Positions 4,069-49,130 of a stretch of DNA of 64,000 bases are shown one piece after another (position 1 is the first letter of the stretch; every line of letters starts with the position of its first letter). Origin of the DNA: an uncultured Roseburia sp. (GTDB lineage: Bacteria; Bacillota; Clostridia; Lachnospirales; Lachnospiraceae); the NCBI GenBank assembly GCA_947088345.1, contig CAMUGE010000002.1, positions 81,728 to 145,727 of the forward strand. Direction: 5' to 3'. A program made the position numbers and the translations under genes. The notes beneath the pieces were generated by a model, which was not told the origin of the DNA, did not search any database, and saw nothing but the letters and a program-made list of their open reading frames with translations.

Positions 4069-4597
4069 AGGCCGCATAATCAATATTGTTGCCGACAAAC
4101 CGTGCAGCATCCAGCGATTTCTGGTTTTTTTGATACGGGTTTGATTCATCGGAATATTTTATCATCGTATTTGTCGTTCCGCCGGCCACAAACGTACGGC
4201 CGCATTCCGGACAGATCTCTGTCTTCAGTGAAACGGATGCGCGCAATACTTTACCGTCGTTCTCTTTTGCATCGCTGTACGCATTGGAAACATGTTCCCC
4301 CTCGTGAGCGCGCACTCTTGCCCCTGCCGCTTCCGGCGCAATATGGGACGCCGATTTAAACGAAACATTTTCATCCGAACCATCCACATATTTACGGTTT
4401 TTGCATGTCTGGCATTCTTCCGGAGAAGACTTACCGGTTAAGCGCGCGGCGCCCATTTCTTCGTCTGCACCGAACGCATCTCCTCTGGGGCTGTCCACAC
4501 TCGCTGCTTTTTCATCTGTAAAAACAGAGTGGGGCATTGCGCCGATATAAAATCCTGCGGAATACGGACTGTACCCGGAAATCTGACCTGTTGGCAT
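4067..4597 (-). CDS. SprA-related putative zinc metalloprotease
   Basis: A 176-aa protein whose C-terminal half matches the SprA-related family: a CQTCKNRKYVDGS block with Cys62/Cys65, an HEGEH motif (HExxH, His98-Glu99-His102), and a second CPEC pair near residue 133 followed by GRTFVAGGTT. HExxH is the signature of zinc peptidases, and the four cysteines suggest a small structural zinc site. No signal peptide or membrane segment is seen. Start: AAAGGAGTG lies seven bases before the ATG at 4597; an upstream ATG at 4621 has no comparable site. The N-terminal 60 residues look disordered. Proteolytic activity is inferred from the motif only; the substrate is unknown. Confidence 0.72.
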   Translation of the reverse strand: MPTGQISGYSPYSAGFYIGAMPHSVFTDEKAASVDSPRGDAFGADEEMGAARLTGKSSPEECQTCKNRKYVDGSDENVSFKSASHIAPEAAGARVRAHEGEHVSNAYSDAKENDGKVLRASVSLKTEICPECGRTFVAGGTTNTMIKYSDESNPYQKNQKSLDAARFVGNNIDYAA

Positions 4598-37293: not shown

Positions 37294-37375
37294 AAAGCAA
37301 AAGAAAACTATAGCAAATCTCATAAAAATATGTTATTTTTAAGGTAACAAATTTTATAAAAGAAAGGAGATCAAC

Positions 37376-40300
37376 ATGAAACACGCATTACACAGGAAAA
37401 TGCTGTCCTTTGGGCTCGCCCTGCTGCTTGCCATGGGCAGTGTTTTCACGGCGCCGGCCACTGAAGTATCCGCAGCTGCGAGGGCGCCGTCCAAAATCAA
37501 GCTAAGCGTTTCCAAGCAAACCATTGGCGTGGGAGACAAATTTACGCTCAAAGTAAAATCCGTCACCCCAAATACAGCCTCCAAAAAGGTAAAATTTAAA
37601 AGCAGCAACAAAAAAGTCGCAACCGTGACAGGCAAAGGCGTAGTAAAAGGCGTCAATGCAGGCACCGCCAAAATCACCGTTACTTCCGCCGCGAAAAAAT
37701 CCGTAAAGGCGACATGCAAAGTTACTGTAGCCGCTATCGTCGTGAAAGACGCCGTAAAAGGCGTTTTGACAATAGACGAAAACAAAAACATAACGCTAAA
37801 GCCCGCCATGAATCCCAAAAGCGTCAAGGTTTCGGGCTTTACCTATTCTATCAGCAACAAAAAAATTGCCACTGTTACAGCCAAGGGCAAGCTAACCGGC
37901 GTAAAATCCGGCAAGACCACCCTGACAATTAAAACAAAAAAGAAAAAGAAAGGCGACAAGGTCTATTCCTTAAAGCTTACTGTAGCAGTCAAAAGCAAAT
38001 CAGATCAGCCAAACGACACGCAGACGCCGCCAAACGACACCGGAACTACCGAAACTCCGAGCGATACCGGCAGCACCGAAACACCCGGCGGTTCTGAAAA
38101 CCCCGGCAATTCCGAAAACCCCGGCGGTTCTGAAAACCCCGGCAATTCCGAAAACCCCGGCAATTCCGAAAACCCCGGCAATTCCGAAAACCCCGGCGGT
38201 TCTGAAAACCCCGGCGATACCGAGAATCCCGGCGATACCGAAAATCCCGGCGGCATTGATATGGGCGAGGACGATCCGAATGCCATAAAGACATGGAAGT
38301 TTGATTTCGGTTCAGCAGAAGATGTTGCCGACGGTTATACGGCGGTGACGGCGGATAAAGATTTTTACGATCCCAAAAATACCGACGGATACGGCTTCCT
38401 TGGCATCAATCCGGATTCCTATCGGGCCAGCAACCGGTTTGACGGATTCGGCAATCAGCTCGGCCAGATACAGGACCTGCGCACCGGCGGCGGAAACGGC
38501 CTTTGTGATGCGATCGGATCGGTGGGCATACTCAACCGTGACGGCAGCCAGCCGGCAGAAAATAATCTTGATCCGCTCGGCGACGAATATTACCCGACGC
38601 GTTTTGCACTGAAAGTCAAAGACGATACCTATTACAGGGTAACAGCTGCAGTAACAACACTTGATCCTGCCAAAGACGCCGCCGCAACACTCTATACCGA
38701 GCGCAAGCACCCGCTTTATACGGACAAAAAGATTGCGGCCGGACAAACGGAAACAACGGTATTTACCATTCGCGTCACACCAATCTACTATGAAAAATCT
38801 GATCCGAAAGGACTGATCGCAGATGAAATGGTAAATGTCTGTGTGGCTGGCGACAACGCCGCGCTTGCAGCGCTGAAAATCGAACAGATTGAGAGCGCCC
38901 CGACACTTTGGGTACTCGGCGATTCCACCGTAACAGACGGGAATACCACGCTTCCGTTCTTCCGCCTCCAAAATTATACCGGCGTCGGCACAGGACTTAC
39001 AAAATACCTGCCAGAAAATATTGCAATGGTAAACGAAGGCGAGGGCGGACTTGCAGCCGGAGACAATAACCACTTTAATGTCGTCAAAGACAGAATCAAA
39101 GAGGGCGACTTTATGTATGTCGAGTACGGCCACAACCACAACAGCACAGAAGAATACAAATCATGCCTTGACAAGTACTTTGACGTCTGTGAGAAAGCAA
39201 AAGCAAACCTGATTATCGTAAGTCCGATCGAACGCATCAATACATTTGCAGACAATGAATACAAACATTCTCTCGACAATTATGCAAGGACAGGAGAAGC
39301 GTATGTGAAAGAGAAGCTTGCCGCCGGCAAGACAAACATAGCCTTTGTCGATCTGAATAAGACAAGTTACGAATTTTACAACCGGATCACAAAAGAAAAC
39401 GGCGGAAATCCCGATATGATCAAGTTTTATTTCTGTACAAAACGGGAGGGCACTACCGACACAACCCATCCAAACGACACCGGTGCGGAAAATCTGGCCT
39501 GGTGTTTCTTTGAAGCTGCCGCGGCAGTTACAGACGATACGCAGAAAGCAGTTCTTGGCGGACTTTTAACAGGGCTTCGCGATGAAAAACCAAACCTCGT
39601 TCCGGACTCCATTACCTCTTTAGGTTCTGCTCCAAACGACGCATGGCCCGTTTATCAGCTGCCGGTTGACGAACAATATCCGGTAGCAATTAAAGACATT
39701 CAATTTGACAGCGACGGAAACCTCTCCTCTGTCAAAGTAATGGTACAGCAGGCCCAGACAGAAATGTCTTCTTACGGGATCATTGCCGTTACCATCCGCG
39801 GCACGGACGGCGTAAAGGGAACGCTCTATGCGACAGACCAGGTAGATAATTCAACCGGATTCGGCGCGCAGATCATAAAGAACTTCCGTGCGGTAAACGC
39901 CTCCGGAACAGCCATAGACAAACTTACGCTTGCCGCAGGCGACTCATACACTGCAGTTGTGTTAAAAGCCCATAGAAACGAGCAGAACATACTGGAGCCT
40001 GACGACGGAAATATCCGGTATTCGGATGAATTTACGGCGGAAGACGTCTCAGAAGTCGATACATACCTCCTTCCGGGCGAAACCGGCGACATTGAGGACT
40101 TTAACCACTTTTCGCAGACGCAGCTTGACGGTTCCGGGAAATGGCTCTTTGGCGGCAGCAGCGACCGCGATATCTCGCTCGGCAAAGACGCTGACGGAAG
40201 AACTTACACAAACCTGACTACGACAAATGCAAAAGGTTCCTGGTGTCTTGCCCGCGCTTTCGAGAATCTGACAAATGCAAGCGGTGAAAACATCGGAACC

Positions 40301-41812
40301 GGCAATACCGGCAGCTATATGATTGATGCGGATCTGAAATATATCTCGGGTTCCAATCTAAAATTCTCATTTGTTGAGAAAACGGCAAACCGCTTTCAAT
40401 CTCCGTTTATCGAGGGAGCGATCTTAGACGCACTTGTAATCGGCTCGGGCGGCGCTTTAAGCTCACATGGAACAGCGCTCGCATCAAAATTGAAGACTAA
40501 CGAGTGGACGCATGTCAAGTATGTACTTCATATGGATTCCGGAACGGCAACCGTCACCGTGGGCAGCAATGCGCCGCAGACAGTTGAAGTACCTGAATTT
40601 GCCACACTTGAAAATGTAACTGTCAGCACGTTCCGCCACCTGGCCATCACACAGACGGCAAACCGGTCAATATTTTCCGCACAGCTGTCCAATCTGACCG
40701 TAGCGAAACTTCGGGACACCAACGCAGAGGTCACAGTAACCGCCGAAGCAGACCTTACCGGCGATGCAAACGGCGCCGTAAAAATTAACGGCCAGGAAAC
40801 GAATACTGCAAATGTCCCGCTCGCTTCCACCGTTACCGTAGAAGCTCTGCCGCAGGGCAATACCGCTTTCCTCGGCTGGTATATGGGCGATACGCAGTAT
40901 TCGACCAAACCAAAAATATCATTCCGGGCCTATAAAAATATTGACCTGAAAGCAAAATTCCTGGTCGGGGTCAAGACAGACGTAACCATAAACTTTAAAG
41001 ACAAGGACGGCGCTCCTGTCAGGGAACCTTTGACCATCTCCGCCTCGGAAGGCGTAGAACTGTACGAAGGGCAGGCATTTACGCTGGAAAATTCCTACAA
41101 GTCACAGTTACAAATTGCAGACGGCAGCCGGACAAAAGTCTACTTATACAACGAAACCGCCACCGGAAATACATCCATAGCTTCACTCGGAACCAAAGGC
41201 AGCAATGAAATTAACCTGCGCTTTGATCTGGACGGCGTATACGATGAATTTGAAGACTTTGACAAAGAAACGCTAACGCCGGAACGATGGGGATTTACAG
41301 AGGGCTCCTCCGGAAATGTGGCGTTAAAAGAAAATGCTTTAGGCATCTTCCTGAATGCGGGCGTAAAAAAAGAATCCCCCGATCACAAAACGCTCTCTTC
41401 CGCTATTGCATCGGCAAAGAAAATTACGATCCGCTATGAATGGCGATGCGATGCGGAATCCGGCAAAGGACGCTATTCTTTCTTCAATTTGAAAGATTCC
41501 GGCGGAAATATCATTTTCTCGCTTTACGGAAACGGCGCAAAAGGCGTAACTTTCGCCGCGAACGAAGCCGCGGGCGAGACAAGCATAAAAGTGGCAAACG
41601 CAGGCGAATGGATACGCGTCAAACTTGATCTTGATTTTGACACAAAAAAAATATCCGGCACGCTGCTTAACCTGGCAACAGGAACAGAAACGTCTCTTTC
41701 GGAGACTACTCTGACAAAAGCCGCAAACCTCGCAACCTTAAATGCCGAATACGGTTATTCCGCAGCTCCGCAGATACTTGACAATTTCGGTATCCGCTAC
41801 ACAGCTGATTGA
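37376..41812 (+). CDS. Secreted CE12-like rhamnogalacturonan acetylesterase, multidomain
   Basis: A 1478-aa secreted protein. Signal peptide (about 1-34, ending VSAAAR); two Big_2-type Ig modules (37-205) with very Lys-rich strands; a Pro-Gly-Ser-Glu-Asn repeat linker (237-290); a WKFDFG beta-sandwich (305-505); an SGNH esterase (about 510-720) with block I VLGDSTV (Ser near 517), block III EYGHNHN and block V DTTHPNDTG (Asp-His pair near 695-698); a beta-sandwich; a LamG-like domain (about 885-1120); an InlB-type repeat (about 1130-1190); and a final LamG-like domain from about 1285. CE12 enzymes remove acetyl groups from rhamnogalacturonan, fitting the neighbouring PL11 lyase. GGAG precedes the ATG. 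Confidence 0.88.
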   Translation: MKHALHRKMLSFGLALLLAMGSVFTAPATEVSAAARAPSKIKLSVSKQTIGVGDKFTLKVKSVTPNTASKKVKFKSSNKKVATVTGKGVVKGVNAGTAKITVTSAAKKSVKATCKVTVAAIVVKDAVKGVLTIDENKNITLKPAMNPKSVKVSGFTYSISNKKIATVTAKGKLTGVKSGKTTLTIKTKKKKKGDKVYSLKLTVAVKSKSDQPNDTQTPPNDTGTTETPSDTGSTETPGGSENPGNSENPGGSENPGNSENPGNSENPGNSENPGGSENPGDTENPGDTENPGGIDMGEDDPNAIKTWKFDFGSAEDVADGYTAVTADKDFYDPKNTDGYGFLGINPDSYRASNRFDGFGNQLGQIQDLRTGGGNGLCDAIGSVGILNRDGSQPAENNLDPLGDEYYPTRFALKVKDDTYYRVTAAVTTLDPAKDAAATLYTERKHPLYTDKKIAAGQTETTVFTIRVTPIYYEKSDPKGLIADEMVNVCVAGDNAALAALKIEQIESAPTLWVLGDSTVTDGNTTLPFFRLQNYTGVGTGLTKYLPENIAMVNEGEGGLAAGDNNHFNVVKDRIKEGDFMYVEYGHNHNSTEEYKSCLDKYFDVCEKAKANLIIVSPIERINTFADNEYKHSLDNYARTGEAYVKEKLAAGKTNIAFVDLNKTSYEFYNRITKENGGNPDMIKFYFCTKREGTTDTTHPNDTGAENLAWCFFEAAAAVTDDTQKAVLGGLLTGLRDEKPNLVPDSITSLGSAPNDAWPVYQLPVDEQYPVAIKDIQFDSDGNLSSVKVMVQQAQTEMSSYGIIAVTIRGTDGVKGTLYATDQVDNSTGFGAQIIKNFRAVNASGTAIDKLTLAAGDSYTAVVLKAHRNEQNILEPDDGNIRYSDEFTAEDVSEVDTYLLPGETGDIEDFNHFSQTQLDGSGKWLFGGSSDRDISLGKDADGRTYTNLTTTNAKGSWCLARAFENLTNASGENIGTGNTGSYMIDADLKYISGSNLKFSFVEKTANRFQSPFIEGAILDALVIGSGGALSSHGTALASKLKTNEWTHVKYVLHMDSGTATVTVGSNAPQTVEVPEFATLENVTVSTFRHLAITQTANRSIFSAQLSNLTVAKLRDTNAEVTVTAEADLTGDANGAVKINGQETNTANVPLASTVTVEALPQGNTAFLGWYMGDTQYSTKPKISFRAYKNIDLKAKFLVGVKTDVTINFKDKDGAPVREPLTISASEGVELYEGQAFTLENSYKSQLQIADGSRTKVYLYNETATGNTSIASLGTKGSNEINLRFDLDGVYDEFEDFDKETLTPERWGFTEGSSGNVALKENALGIFLNAGVKKESPDHKTLSSAIASAKKITIRYEWRCDAESGKGRYSFFNLKDSGGNIIFSLYGNGAKGVTFAANEAAGETSIKVANAGEWIRVKLDLDFDTKKISGTLLNLATGTETSLSETTLTKAANLATLNAEYGYSAAPQILDNFGIRYTAD
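38084..38245 (+). repeat. Nine 18-bp tandem repeats encoding PG(G/N)SEN
   Basis: Nine in-frame units of 18 bases encode PGGSEN, PGNSEN or PGDTEN. They form a flexible linker between the Ig modules and the FDFG domain of the esterase. Near-identical neighbouring units suggest recent slippage or recombination. Confidence 0.9.
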
Positions 41813-43850: not shown

Positions 43851-43959
43851 TCTGACCTTACAGCAGGGTAAAAAGCTTCCAAAACAGCAGGGAAGCGTCA
43901 CCAGATACGCAGCAGAATCATAATATAAAATCAAGTGGATCTTTCTTAAAGGAAAAATT

Positions 43960-44433
43960 ATGGCATATACAGATTTGGAACCGATCACAGGTACAATAAT
44001 CAGCGTTACAAACGGCAGCGACTGCTGCAGCCAGATGATGTCTGTAAACACAAATAACGGCATTGTCAATTTTATGATTACTCCTGATACGCATGTAATA
44101 GAGAACAGGCGGCTTCGTCCCGGTCTTTTCGTCGCGGCATTTTATGACCGCACACTGCCTGTCCCGCTGATTTTCCCGCCGCAATACCAGGCTCAGATTG
44201 TCACCGTTCTGATGCGAAACGAACAGGTCATGATCGGCGAATTTGACCGAAACCTGATCGCACGCGATAATTCTTTGCAGCTCACAGTATCTCGAAGCAC
44301 CAATACCGAGACGTTAAACGGTCAAAATTTTAACTGCAGCCTCTCCGGAAGAACGCTGCTTGTCTATTATTCGACGACAACACGAAGCATTCCTCCGCAG
44401 ACAACGCCCCGTAAAATTGTTGTTCTCTGCTAG
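43960..44433 (+). CDS. Conserved-looking 157-aa protein of unknown function
   Basis: A 157-aa soluble protein, all-beta by its alternating hydrophobic pattern (GTIISVTNGSDCCSQMMSV, TLPVPLIFPPQYQAQIVTV). No signal peptide or membrane helix. It ends ...RKIVVLC with a C-terminal Cys, plus a Cys-Cys pair at about 22-23. AAAGGAAA precedes the ATG. I do not recognise the family. It stands between the histidine kinase and the restriction-modification genes, with its own weak upstream TAATAT-like sequence; whether it belongs to either neighbour is unclear. Confidence 0.6.
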   Translation: MAYTDLEPITGTIISVTNGSDCCSQMMSVNTNNGIVNFMITPDTHVIENRRLRPGLFVAAFYDRTLPVPLIFPPQYQAQIVTVLMRNEQVMIGEFDRNLIARDNSLQLTVSRSTNTETLNGQNFNCSLSGRTLLVYYSTTTRSIPPQTTPRKIVVLC

Positions 44434-44460
44434 GCAAAACAAATGTTTGGCAAAAAAAAC

Positions 44461-44489
44461 TTGAATTTACCGGGACAACTGCCTATAAT
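44461..44489 (+). promoter_or_regulatory. Promoter of the restriction-modification operon
   Basis: TTGAAT (44461-44466), 17-base spacer, TATAAT (44484-44489). A small CAGG/CCTG hairpin (about 44503-44516) sits between it and the start codon and might be a control site. Confidence 0.8.
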
Positions 44490-44536
44490 AATACGTACAG
44501 TAACAGGGTAAAACCTGATAAAACGGGGTGCATGAA

Positions 44537-47050
44537 GTGTTAAAAGATAAAACTTTGACATACATCAGTCTGTTCAGCTGTGCGGGAGTCGGCTGCTACG
44601 GATTTAAAAAAGCCGGCTTTGCATGTGTCGCTACCAACGAGCTACTGGAACGGCGCTTAAATATTCAGAAAATAAATGGGAAATGCAGCTTTGATTCCGG
44701 ATATATCTGCGGCGATATTACAAACGAAGAAATCAAACGCCGTATTTTTGAAGAAATCAAAAAATGGAAAAAACTTGGCAATGACAGGGTTGACGTATTA
44801 ATCGCCACCCCGCCATGCCAGGGCATGTCTGTAGCCAACCACAAAAAAAGCGAAAACGAAATTGTAAGAAACAGTCTGGTCGTAGATTCCATCCGCCTGA
44901 TTCAATCCATCCGTCCCCGATTTTTTTTGTTCGAAAACGTTGCATCTTTTACCAAAACAGGCTGTACGGCGCCCGACGGGACCGTTAAATACATCGGCGA
45001 TGTCATCAGCGAGGAACTTGGCAGCACCTATACCATTTTAAGCCGTATCCTCAATTTCAAAAACTATGGAGCAAACTCCTCCCGCACGCGTACTGTTGTG
45101 ATTGGAGTTGATAAATCCATGGCTGAATATATCGCACCGATTGAATTATTTCCTTCCTATACAAAAGAACTTAGTTTAAAAAAGGTGATCGGTTCTCTCC
45201 CAAAACTCAACTGGGGGGAAATCTGCCCAACCGATTTTTACCATGCATTCCGCACTTACCCGGAAGAAATGCGCTGCTGGATTCATGACCTGAAAGAAGG
45301 CGAATGCGCTTTTGACAATAAGGATGAATCCCTGCGTCCGCACCGTATGGTAAACGGCGAACGTATTCCAAATATACGAAAAAACGGCGACAAATATACG
45401 CGTCAGTGCTGGGATAAAACAGCGCCGTGCGTACATACCAGAAACGACCTGCTCGCAAGCCAGAATACGGTTCATCCGCAGGAAGACCGTGTCTTTTCCA
45501 TCCGCGAGTTAATGCATTTTATGACAATTCCCGACGAATTTAAGTGGATTGATCTGCCGCTTCCGGAACTGAACGCACTATCGGAGGACAGGAAAAAAAC
45601 ACTGTTAAAAAAGGAAGAGATGAATATCCGACAGAGCATAGGCGAGGCGGTACCCACCGAGATTTTTTATCGAATTGCCTGTTACATCCGCGATTTTCTA
45701 AATCAGGAACACTTTCCAAACGCCGCGCTGAAAAAAACAATTGCAGACAACCATCTCATCCGGACAGAAAAACTGATCCCCTTTCTCAAAGAAAATCCGC
45801 TTCATTTAGGAACCGCCACACTTGCGCGCATCGCGGAGCTGACAAATGCCGGACGGGAAAATAATGCCGCCTACTATACAAACAAATTCATTATCAATGA
45901 GATTTATAAAGAATTGCCCGTTTTTGAAAAGGATGAAATCAATATACTGGAACCGTCTGTCGGAGTCGGAAACTTTTTGCCCTTTTTATTCCGCAAATAC
46001 GAATCAATAAAAAAGGTGACGATTGACGTCGCGGACATTGACCCGAATAATTTAGAGATTCTTCAGCTATTGCTGGCCAAACAGCAGATACCGCCAAATG
46101 TCACGATGCATTTTATTCCCACGGACTCGCTTTTGTATGATTTTGGAAAACAATACGACCTTGTGATCGGCAATCCTCCGTTTTCCAAATTGAAAGCAAA
46201 AGACGCCGCCCCCTACCGCAGACAGAACCAGAACCAGCAAACGACGAATACATTTGAATTTTTTCTGGAGAAGGCAATACAAATCTCCGACTATGTGGTG
46301 ATGATTGTGCCAAAAGCCATATTAAATACACCGGAGTTTATCGAAACAAGAAAACTGCTCTCCTCCAAAAAAATAGACTGTATCCAGGATTTTGGGGAAC
46401 ATGGCTTTCAGGGCGTTCTTGTGGAGACCGTCTGCCTGTTTATTGATACAAACGGGTTGCCCAAAAAAACAAAAGTGCAGTCGCTCCCAAGAAAGCAACA
46501 CCTGCTGCAAAAACAGTCCTATATCACAGACCCTTTTTTTCCGTACTGGCTGATCTATCGAAACGACTTTTTTGATCGGATCGCCAAACAGCTGGATTTC
46601 AATAAATTTACGGTATTTCGGGACAGGCAGGTAACAAACTCCAATACGACGCAGCAAAACGATACGGACTGTCTGCGCGTGATACGCTCGAGAAATATCA
46701 GCGACGACGGCAAAGCGATCATCGATATCCCCGGTTATGATACATACATCAAAAAAAATGATGCAAAACGTTTAAGCGCTTACAAGTATGTCGGAGATGA
46801 AAACGTCTATCTGACGCCAAATATGACTTACAAACCAAGGGTTATGAAAAATGCCGGCAATATGCTGGTAAACGGATCGGTTGCAATCCTGATTCCGAAA
46901 GAAAAACTCGAACTGACCGAATCACAGATGGCATATTTTTCGTCGGAAGAATACCGGCAGTTTTACCAGATTGCGAGAAATTACCAGACGCGTTCCTTAA
47001 ATGTGGACGCTGCAAGCGTGTTTTTTTATGGCATACGAAAGGAGCAGTGA
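44537..47050 (+). CDS. Fused cytosine-C5 / adenine-N6 DNA methyltransferase
   Basis: An 837-aa protein with two methyltransferases in one chain. The first half (about 1-390) is a C5-cytosine enzyme: motif I SLFSCAGVGCYGF, the catalytic Cys in TPPCQGMS (Cys94), FLFENVASF (motif VI), SSRTRTVVIG (motif VIII) and IGEAVPTEIF (motif X). The second half (about 430-837) is an N6-adenine enzyme: SAM motif ILEPSVGVGNFLPF and catalytic NPPF near residue 546, with a C-terminal target-recognition region. Start is probably GTG at 44537 after GGGGTG; GTG at 44528 is an alternative. The HNH endonuclease gene begins two bases after the stop. Two different base modifications fit protection of both strands of an asymmetric site. 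Confidence 0.92.
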   Translation: MLKDKTLTYISLFSCAGVGCYGFKKAGFACVATNELLERRLNIQKINGKCSFDSGYICGDITNEEIKRRIFEEIKKWKKLGNDRVDVLIATPPCQGMSVANHKKSENEIVRNSLVVDSIRLIQSIRPRFFLFENVASFTKTGCTAPDGTVKYIGDVISEELGSTYTILSRILNFKNYGANSSRTRTVVIGVDKSMAEYIAPIELFPSYTKELSLKKVIGSLPKLNWGEICPTDFYHAFRTYPEEMRCWIHDLKEGECAFDNKDESLRPHRMVNGERIPNIRKNGDKYTRQCWDKTAPCVHTRNDLLASQNTVHPQEDRVFSIRELMHFMTIPDEFKWIDLPLPELNALSEDRKKTLLKKEEMNIRQSIGEAVPTEIFYRIACYIRDFLNQEHFPNAALKKTIADNHLIRTEKLIPFLKENPLHLGTATLARIAELTNAGRENNAAYYTNKFIINEIYKELPVFEKDEINILEPSVGVGNFLPFLFRKYESIKKVTIDVADIDPNNLEILQLLLAKQQIPPNVTMHFIPTDSLLYDFGKQYDLVIGNPPFSKLKAKDAAPYRRQNQNQQTTNTFEFFLEKAIQISDYVVMIVPKAILNTPEFIETRKLLSSKKIDCIQDFGEHGFQGVLVETVCLFIDTNGLPKKTKVQSLPRKQHLLQKQSYITDPFFPYWLIYRNDFFDRIAKQLDFNKFTVFRDRQVTNSNTTQQNDTDCLRVIRSRNISDDGKAIIDIPGYDTYIKKNDAKRLSAYKYVGDENVYLTPNMTYKPRVMKNAGNMLVNGSVAILIPKEKLELTESQMAYFSSEEYRQFYQIARNYQTRSLNVDAASVFFYGIRKEQ

Positions 47051-47052
47051 TT

Positions 47053-48273
47053 ATGGACGAAAAGACAATCCGGCTTTTTTTAGACAGGCATGACTACGAT
47101 ATTCGAAAAACTCACAACGCGCGATGGATCGATCAGAAATGCACAATGGATGTAGTCTGTCTGGTAGCCGACTGTATTGCGGAATACACAGGAAATCAGA
47201 CGGGCTCTGCTTTTACCGTAAAAGACATCTGGCTCAGCGGCTATACAAGCGAAAACGTAAGACAGATTTTCTGCAAACCTGACCCGGCCAGCAAAGCGTC
47301 CAATGAATACGACAAATATTTCGGCCAGCCGATCAAACTGCTGGATGCTGCCGGAATTATCCATGGCAGAAAACACGGAAACTATATTCTGTATTCTCTG
47401 AAAGAGGAAAGCATATTGGAATATATCAGTTTCAGGGAGAGAAACTCCCTGAAGTTTTTATGTCTCTACATAGAAAAAGTGTTAAAGGACAGCGGAATTT
47501 ATGATCCGTTTGAGAAATTTTTCCGACTGCAGGATAAGAACAGTTTTAAAGAATTAAAAGACGCTTTCACTGCATTTACCATCGCCCACACGCCGATCAA
47601 CGGGACATTGGAATGCGGTCGTATTTTCACAAAAGTATTAAACCCGCTGGCGTATCAATACGGGAAACGCGGAACAGAACGCGGCCATCTCTCAAAAGGT
47701 ATCATCACGCAGGACATGATCCTCTACAATCAAAAGAACTGGCGCGACATCTTATCCGAAAAACCAAAAGATATCACAAGAGTCGAACATGCCGCCGCAT
47801 TGCCCAATGGGGGAGACGACGTCGTCACGTCCTACCGGATTAACCGCGCCAAGAAAAATCTGCGCCATTTTAATGACCGGTACCGCGAAAGCAAAACCGA
47901 ATTGTCCGACCCGCGGCATATGCAGAACCCCGCAACACAGATGCACCACATTTTTCCGGTCAGCGAATTTCCGTCCATCGCTGACTGCCCGGAAAACCTG
48001 ATCGCATTAACGCCAACACAGCATTTTTCTTATGCACACCCTAACAATAATACACAGTATATCGACAGACGTTACCAGTATCTATGCCTGCTTGCAAAGA
48101 CAGATTCCATACAGGACAATCTTTTGGGCGGTCACGAAATGCCAGTGATCTATGATTTTTGCGCATACCTGACTGTGTTAAATACCGGCTTTTGTACCGC
48201 TGAATTTTCCGATGTAGCCGTTCTGGATTTCAATGGCCTGAGAAAAAAAATACAAAAATTTGATCCCCGCTGA
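47053..48273 (+). CDS. HNH-type restriction endonuclease (probable type IIS)
   Basis: A 406-aa protein. The C-terminal nuclease has the HNH beta-beta-alpha-metal pattern: His298-His299 in QMHHIFPVSEF, Asn315 in ENLIALTPTQH and His324. The N-terminal 130 residues look like a winged-helix DNA-reading domain. GGAG before the ATG; it begins two bases after the methyltransferase stop, so the two are translated together. Known HNH enzymes of type IIS such as HphI and MnlI are partnered by one C5 and one N6 methyltransferase; here those are fused. The recognition site cannot be read from sequence. Confidence 0.85.
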   Translation: MDEKTIRLFLDRHDYDIRKTHNARWIDQKCTMDVVCLVADCIAEYTGNQTGSAFTVKDIWLSGYTSENVRQIFCKPDPASKASNEYDKYFGQPIKLLDAAGIIHGRKHGNYILYSLKEESILEYISFRERNSLKFLCLYIEKVLKDSGIYDPFEKFFRLQDKNSFKELKDAFTAFTIAHTPINGTLECGRIFTKVLNPLAYQYGKRGTERGHLSKGIITQDMILYNQKNWRDILSEKPKDITRVEHAAALPNGGDDVVTSYRINRAKKNLRHFNDRYRESKTELSDPRHMQNPATQMHHIFPVSEFPSIADCPENLIALTPTQHFSYAHPNNNTQYIDRRYQYLCLLAKTDSIQDNLLGGHEMPVIYDFCAYLTVLNTGFCTAEFSDVAVLDFNGLRKKIQKFDPR

Positions 48274-48410
48274 TCGCGCGGACAAAACCAGACGCCAAAG
48301 GCGAATCGGAATCCGCCTTATTCTCATTCCTTTTCGCTTTGGTTTTAATTTCAAATAAGAGAAGACATAAGACGCTGCCCGTGACTTTACCGATGGCTGC
48401 CGCCTATAAC
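48274..48410. other. Gap between convergent genes
   Basis: Between the endonuclease and the regulator gene. An imperfect hairpin (GGCGAAT/ATCCGCC, around 48300-48318) and a short T-rich stretch might end both transcripts. No gene is seen. Confidence 0.35.
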
Positions 48411-49130
48411 TTAGCAATACTTTGTGTCAAACTCCATATATTTCTTTTCAAAATCATTTTTCTTACGACTGGAAACCAGAATTTTCTCCCCTGTGGTCAG
48501 ATGAACGACTTCTTTCTCTATTGTGCGCACCGCCCCAAGATTGACGATATACTCCTTATGGCAGCGAAAAAACAGGCGGTTATCCAGCACTTCCTCCCAT
48601 TTTTTTAACGGGACTTCACTGCGAAATTCATATTTTTTTGTATAAATCATGGTTTCGGCGCTTTCCGCCAGGATATAACAGATATCTTTCTGCAGAATTG
48701 TATGGCTTTTTCCGTCGCAATAAACATGAAGTTCGTCCGTGCCAAGCATTCGTTTTCGGACTGCATCGACTGCTTCAAACAATTCCTGCTTCATAATTGG
48801 TTTTGTCACAAAACGGAATGCGCCAATCCGAAACGCCTCTTTAAAACGCTCCGTTTTCGAAGTCAGCATAATAATCCTGTAAGAAATCTCGTTTTTCAGC
48901 AGCTGGAATGCCGCCGCGATGCCGTCGATCTCCGGCATTTCAATATCCAAAAACAAAATATCAAGATCCTTTGTCTTCTCCGCCTGCATTAACAATTCTC
49001 TTCCGGAAGAAAAATACACAAGTTTGCAGGATATGCCGCTCTTCTTTGCATACTCGGCAATATACTGCTCCAGAATAATAAAAGCCTCTATATCGTCGTC
49101 GCACAATCCCATCTTCAGACAATCTTTCAT
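48411..49130 (-). CDS. LytTR-family response regulator
   Basis: A 239-aa regulator. Receiver domain (about 5-120) with acidic pocket CDDD, phosphoacceptor Asp62 in ILFLDIEMPEIDG, Thr in MLTSK and Lys in FVTKPI. The LytTR DNA-binding domain (about 135-236) shows FFRCHKEYIVNL, the recognisable core of AgrA/LytR regulators. GAGGGGAG precedes the ATG. Likely partner of the AgrC-like kinase at 42462-43850, although the two genes are convergent and 4.5 kb apart, with the restriction system between them. Confidence 0.9.
   Translation of the reverse strand: MKDCLKMGLCDDDIEAFIILEQYIAEYAKKSGISCKLVYFSSGRELLMQAEKTKDLDILFLDIEMPEIDGIAAAFQLLKNEISYRIIMLTSKTERFKEAFRIGAFRFVTKPIMKQELFEAVDAVRKRMLGTDELHVYCDGKSHTILQKDICYILAESAETMIYTKKYEFRSEVPLKKWEEVLDNRLFFRCHKEYIVNLGAVRTIEKEVVHLTTGEKILVSSRKKNDFEKKYMEFDTKYC

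Follow-up and report, generated by a model that had tools for sequence, protein, structure and literature searches.

The stretch analysed here, which we call the window, comprises 64,000 nucleotides of an uncultured Roseburia sp. (contig CAMUGE010000002.1, positions 81,728 to 145,727 of the forward strand). Between its positions 44537 and 48273 lie two genes read in the same direction, one for a DNA methyltransferase (M) and one for a restriction endonuclease (R), separated by a very short junction:

44537..47050, + strand: M gene, a fused methyltransferase with a C5-cytosine half at about residues 1-390 and an N6-adenine half at about residues 400-837, from the open frame and profile matches.
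47041..47055, + strand: M-R junction, with a Shine-Dalgarno-like GGAG inside M at 47041-47044, the M stop codon TGA at 47048-47050, two bases, and the R start codon ATG at 47053.
47053..48273, + strand: R gene, an HNH restriction endonuclease of 406 amino acids, from the open frame, the PADLOC profile PDLC03488 and the residues H298, H299, N315 and H324.

The M frame is open from a GTG at 44528 (840 amino acids) and, read from the GTG at 44537 chosen in the original prediction, encodes 837; the latter is the likelier start because two relatives, L019 (MLKDKT..) and L076 (MLKDNT..), have an ATG at the equivalent residue. Throughout, L-numbers denote fetched loci and G-numbers genomes, G000 being the window's own genome and G032 a sister genome. 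In the 840-residue reading, Pfam's DNA_methylase family matches residues 11-340 (E 2e-35) and its Eco57I-type N6 methylase family residues 538-624 (E 1.9e-12), and the motifs FSCAG, PCQG, ENV, EPSVGVG and NPPF are in place, so that the earlier claim of intact C5 and N6 catalytic centres in one chain holds. R has a sub-threshold match to HNH_2 in Pfam (E 0.14) and scores 519 bits over 403 residues against PDLC03488, the PADLOC profile for a 'Type II restriction enzyme'. Its catalytic residues are kept in nearly all of 40 aligned sequences, the window's included (H298, H299 and H324 in 40/40, N315 in 39/40); the alignment leaves out L016, L028, L036, L037 and L040, which are too short or broken, and L041 and L060, which come from the genome of L029. 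In a confident AlphaFold2 model of R (mean predicted local distance difference test score 87.4), these four residues lie among two strands, 296-299 and 316-319, and one helix, 321-328. With M and R both intact and matched by family profiles, and with the HNH gene starting two bases behind M, the two-gene Type II system originally proposed is borne out; a single-chain Type IIC/IIG enzyme can be dismissed, since a stop codon separates M from R in the window. As a side observation, the sole change at the four catalytic positions is a D at the N315 equivalent in L014 (Lachnotalea), and from its sequence the activity of that enzyme is doubtful.

M matches PADLOC profile PDLC03277 with 955 bits, its residues 5-838 covering positions 2-820 of 823, while its two halves match PDLC03370 (387 positions) and PDLC03382 (445 positions). 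These profile lengths equal the lengths published for M.HpyAV (823 amino acids), M1.Hin4II (387) and M2.Hin4II (445) in Table 2 of Chan 2010 (PMC2816704), which describes M.HpyAV as a true fusion of C5 and N6 enzymes whose gene precedes R and is read the same way. HpyAV (Helicobacter pylori 26695, hp0053/hp0054, CCTTC(6/5)) thus shares with the window a single fused M, the gene order and the orientation, and its R is likewise an HNH protein, whose H294/H295/N311/H320 have exactly the offsets (0/1/17/26) of the four residues in the window's R. The two differ in phylum and in length (M 823 versus 837 amino acids, R 419 versus 406); HpyAV prefers Mn, Ni or Co over Mg. Hin4II (Haemophilus influenzae RFL4, CCTTC) has homologous C5, N6 and HNH parts by profile and the same predicted site, but its M1 and M2 are separate genes where those of the window are fused. 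Full-length profile matches of M and R, an M gene upstream of R in the same direction, C5 and N6 methyltransferase halves in one chain (with relatives that are either fused or split) and, indirectly, a carrier-specific depletion of CCTTC all point the same way: we conclude, with a probability of roughly 0.93, that these genes make up a complete restriction-modification system, Type II and probably IIS, which belongs to the HpyAV/Hin4II family and has the predicted site 5'-CCTTC-3'/5'-GAAGG-3'.

In such a system the strand reading CCTTC would receive 5-methylcytosine (m5C) from the C5 half of M, and the strand reading GAAGG would receive N6-methyladenine (m6A) from the N6 half, so that both would be protected as in HpyAV, and R would cut unmethylated CCTTC a few bases downstream (HpyAV cuts at 6/5). 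By analogy with known members of the family, then, the proposal that one chain marks the two strands of one asymmetric site stands as a prediction from sequence. That the fused chain should be an unreported, economical variant does not survive: a C5-N6 fusion was published for M.HpyAV in 2010 (PMC2816704), and the single gene hp0054 was assigned both m5C at CCTTC (91.9%) and m6A at GAAGG (96.0%) by single-molecule real-time sequencing (Krebs 2013, PMC3936762), so that what the window carries is the known HpyAV arrangement. MhoVII of Mycoplasma hominis (PMC12898733) also joins two methyltransferases in one chain, with an asymmetric site and a separate nuclease, but both of its halves make 6mA (GATG/CATC). 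M.Nme15193I (Neisseria meningitidis NEIS0295), by its locus number probably ORF295 of Chan's table and there 42% identical to M.HpyAV, produces m6A at 98.7-99.9% of GAAGG sites, which suggests by analogy that specificity is kept in distant members of the family; a transposase insertion sits in its R gene in 13/13 genomes of that study, whereas the R of the window is intact. Fusion is also the common form among the loci found. An R-based pattern scan of one genome per species (84,980 species), which picks up close relatives only, returned 39 R loci; leaving out L028, L036 and L040, where M has no match, 34 of the 36 loci with both halves seen are fused and two (Gilliamella, Snodgrassella) are split. 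On plasmids and phages, two Acinetobacter plasmids have the split form, and a Psychrobacter plasmid and two phage-labelled contigs the fused one.

Members of the Alw26I/Eco31I/Esp3I group likewise have an asymmetric site that receives m5C on one strand and m6A on its complement, and the N6 half of M does match TIGR02987, albeit weakly (48.3 bits, E 6.3e-13). Membership in that group is nonetheless hardly credible. The cut-off of TIGR02987, at 353.5 bits, is far above this score, and the window's M has the motif-I-like FSCAG first (residue 16) and GEAVP, which we take to be motif X, last. The C5 enzymes of the Alw26I group are, by contrast, circularly permuted, with motifs IX-X before motif I (PMC5944983).

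Support for the HpyAV/Hin4II assignment that does not depend on protein similarity comes from the frequency of the site itself. Expected counts were derived from a maximal-order Markov model over both strands, for all 512 strand-merged five-mers. In 459,560 bases of G000, CCTTC/GAAGG occurs 316 times where 604 occurrences are expected, an observed-to-expected ratio (O/E) of 0.524 (z -14.7) and the second lowest of all five-mers; only CTCAG ranks below it, and that word is strongly depleted in several non-carriers too. We sampled nine genomes that carry R (G000, G032, G372, G369, G147, G221, G251, G326 and G140), of which six lie at 0.42-0.52: besides G000, these are G032 (0.504), G372 (0.470), G369 (0.469), G147 (0.416) and G221 (0.464). 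The ratio in ten non-carriers is 0.831-1.027. Leaving out G140, which has an R fragment only, no M match in its locus (L028) and an O/E of 0.945, CCTTC shows the largest drop from non-carriers to carriers of all 512 words (-0.53 in log O/E, with an all-motif standard deviation of 0.064; eight versus ten genomes). In the fetched loci of G147, G221, G251 and G372, R and the N6 half are present; the C5 half runs past the locus edge and is seen in part or not at all, though L011, from the genome G372, has it. Sequence flanking the loci tells a similar story for most groups. Pooled flanks of 15 Lachnospiraceae/Clostridia loci (0.50) and of two Anaerocolumna loci (0.45) each have CCTTC as the lowest of 512; values are 0.65 for Streptococcus/Ezakiella/Eggerthia, 0.57 for three gamma/beta loci including both split ones, and 0.45, on six sites only, for L007. 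Note that G372/L011 and G326/L002 enter both the genome and the flank counts. As an aside, CTCAG, GGACC and CCAGG rank with the most strongly depleted words of many sampled genomes, carriers or not (G000, G032, G020, G027, G035, G016, G251 and others).

A system of this family and architecture might still recognise something else, one half of M or R having been retuned away from CCTTC. Recognition-domain swaps are common in methyltransferases, and the R of the window is 38-86% identical to its relatives. We consider this very unlikely given the rank of CCTTC in the host and the shape of the signal around it: in G000, the 15 one-base neighbours of CCTTC have O/E values of 0.87-1.19, while its eight one-base extensions all fall to 0.43-0.67, so that the avoided word is these five bases. 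Moreover, across 37 relatives the recognition regions are conserved to about the same degree as the catalytic ones (in the C5 half, 54-88% for the target recognition domain and 52-92% for the catalytic regions), which argues for one shared specificity, unlike enzymes that differ in target.

Several points weigh against CCTTC as the site and against the family assignment. The Blautia genome G326, source of L002 and of a full-length R, has an O/E of 0.957 in 100 kb (the 9.5-kb flank of L002, unlike its genome, has 0.56), G251 is depleted only partially (0.793), and the pooled flanks of mollicute (0.97) and Prevotella (1.00) loci show no depletion. The rank-test p of CCTTC (4.3e-4) is common to CGGCC (-0.23) and GTCAC (-0.19), whose drops are smaller, and the six-mers that drop most are unrelated words, GAATTC above all. 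Genome samples were 35 to 400 kb, and the ten non-carriers, six from the genus and four from the family, were chosen by hand rather than at random. Kinship to HpyAV/Hin4II is drawn from PADLOC profiles equated with REBASE proteins by length, from residue spacing and from the literature rather than from direct alignment. Finally, depletion records past restriction of the site rather than present-day activity.

The literature offers some guidance on the exceptions. Where R and M of a Type II system are independent, its site, palindromic or otherwise, is avoided in about one case in two, and more frequently if the system is old, and the sites of single-chain types are mostly not avoided (Rusinov 2015, PMC4687349). 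The depletion observed in G000 fits an old CCTTC system in the window's lineage; some other carriers perhaps acquired theirs recently or have it in inactive form.

Could the window's own system be decayed or silent, with methylation persisting and R inactive or unexpressed? There is a terminator-like hairpin inside R (47428-47456, 12 pairs in the scan, -14.7 kcal/mol, followed by a T run) and a second one near the end of M (47007-47019), and the sporadic presence of the system, in 2 of 60 relatives with the window's own genome counted, implies gain and loss. Yet the R frame is intact with all four catalytic residues, CCTTC is strongly depleted, and the sister species keeps the whole unit in the same place at 87% nucleotide identity (window 43863-48261). 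None of the 19 relatives that were folded, the sister among them, keeps the hairpin in R (-0.8 to -9.0 kcal/mol), and for that reason we also rejected it as an attenuator. Decay is therefore unlikely, and the system may well restrict today.

The sporadic distribution can be put in numbers. R is present in 2/36 genomes searched of the window's genus, 12/397 of the family (seven full length, two partial, three weak) and 2/398 of a phylum sample, where the other match is weak, the window's own genome being included each time; 14 control genomes gave no match to the R family. Family carriers outside the site counts are G081, G277 and G395, which are weak, and G240, whose R lies in two pieces near contig ends. 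L029, whose record bears the label uncultured Roseburia, has the same sequence as the G032 locus.

How restriction is delayed when such a system enters a new host was raised in the original prediction, which had noted the absence of a C protein. By Pfam, the system has no C-protein-like gene next to it, either in the M-R gap, which contains no gene, or among the nearest neighbours. Because R starts two bases past the M stop codon, with GGAG inside M, translation of R probably depends on that of M. Delay could then follow from M being first in the operon and from this coupling. The prediction had also linked the system to a strong promoter:

44461..44489, + strand: sigma-70-like promoter candidate, TTGAAT-17-TATAAT, consensus 10/12, 47 bases ahead of 44537.

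A candidate is indeed there, but the strength claimed for it is not upheld: a scan of the region found nine such sites when 8.8 were expected by chance from shuffles, so that this one is weak and plausible by position only. We also considered a programmed M-to-R frameshift at a T7 run near the end of M, as the R frame is open for about 82 codons upstream in window and sister. We make no claim for it; by our reading there is no canonical slippery site, and the relation of the M and R frames differs in the other Lachnospiraceae-type loci measured.

Two relatives take the joining of functions one step further:

L007:272-4015, + strand: C5, N6 and HNH in one open frame of 1248 codons, no internal stop, catalytic motifs kept.
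L013:3436-7230, + strand: C5, N6 and HNH in one open frame of 1265 codons, no internal stop, catalytic motifs kept.

They are the only relatives in which the frame is open from M into R. The R tree pairs them as sisters (support 99/91; L056, a near-copy of L055, was left out), and they are 76% identical over 1245 residues. Between the last conserved glycine codon and the start of R there are 21 bases in both and 23 in window and sister; in 15 other loci measured there are 22 (13 loci), 19 in L016 (to an ATT; a GTG gives 22) and 25 in L035. An assembly error is an unlikely source of these frames, given differently named assemblies, sister branches, 76% identity and the same 21 bases. Since an R start codon and a ribosome-site-like stretch are retained inside the frame, free R may still be made. 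We tentatively suggest, at somewhat less than even odds, that L007 and L013 encode a natural trifunctional restriction-modification chain that arose by one ancestral base loss at the M-R junction, perhaps yielding both the full chain and free R, with the window as a two-gene relative. Genome G369 is identical to L013 over 4215 bases and avoids CCTTC despite the single chain, which may mean that free R is still produced or that the fusion arose after the avoidance, unless the genome is simply an exception. R is absent from the five other genomes searched in its genus. In a limited search of open-access literature, not covering REBASE, no paper on a C5-N6-HNH single chain stood among the matches listed.

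Other loci carry additional genes. L019 (7211-8461) and L076 (5016-6260) have a second HpyAV-like nuclease behind the first, 39-42% identical to the window's R and 64% to each other, with H-H-N-H kept in the L019 copy; these may represent a two-nuclease variant. In nine of 45 loci (39 genome, five plasmid or phage, one viral; some end too near to reveal it) a small-protein family is encoded in the M-R gap or directly after R:

L002:7626-8755: small-protein member.
L006:8034-8558: small-protein member.
L019:5490-5987: small-protein member.
L022:5660-5974: small-protein member.
L024:5461-5967: small-protein member.
L025:3899-4405: small-protein member.
L056:3250-3612: small-protein member.
L059:about 4120-4401: small-protein member.
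L076:4375-5001: small-protein member.

By eye, the family has a motif like QGAW..EGRIHF. The longer L002 member carries an HNH domain and the L076 member a PcrA/UvrD-tudor-like tail just under cut-off; the core has no above-cut-off match in the Pfam, NCBIfam and PADLOC scans run. It is a candidate accessory or control protein, and none was found in the window.

Around the window's system, the gene closest upstream (43960-44433) is without a match in Pfam, and the nearest downstream gene, on the opposite strand, encodes a LytTR response regulator. In the sister (L060:1960-7412), about 5.4 kb of extra sequence lies between R and that regulator, where the window has 48273-48411; by open reading frames it holds a sensor-kinase-like gene and sugar ATP-binding cassette transporter-like genes, and was either lost in the window or gained in the sister. 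Further upstream, at 37343-41809 (+ strand), a 1489-codon open frame with bacterial immunoglobulin-like (Big_2) domains probably encodes a surface protein.

With the fused two-mark design already known, what is new here is a further member of the HpyAV family whose CCTTC specificity is backed by an independent, genome-wide signal. It puts a fused m5C/m6A system whose specificity can be predicted into a Lachnospiraceae-type lineage, and illustrates that site depletion can reveal the specificity of an asymmetric-site enzyme in genomes. A Nanopore study has reported a GAAGG 6mA motif in more than five human gut species (PMC12118455), and an HpyAV-like system is a possible source of that motif. 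The in-frame fusions of L007 and L013, in turn, make the effect of joining restriction and modification in one chain testable.

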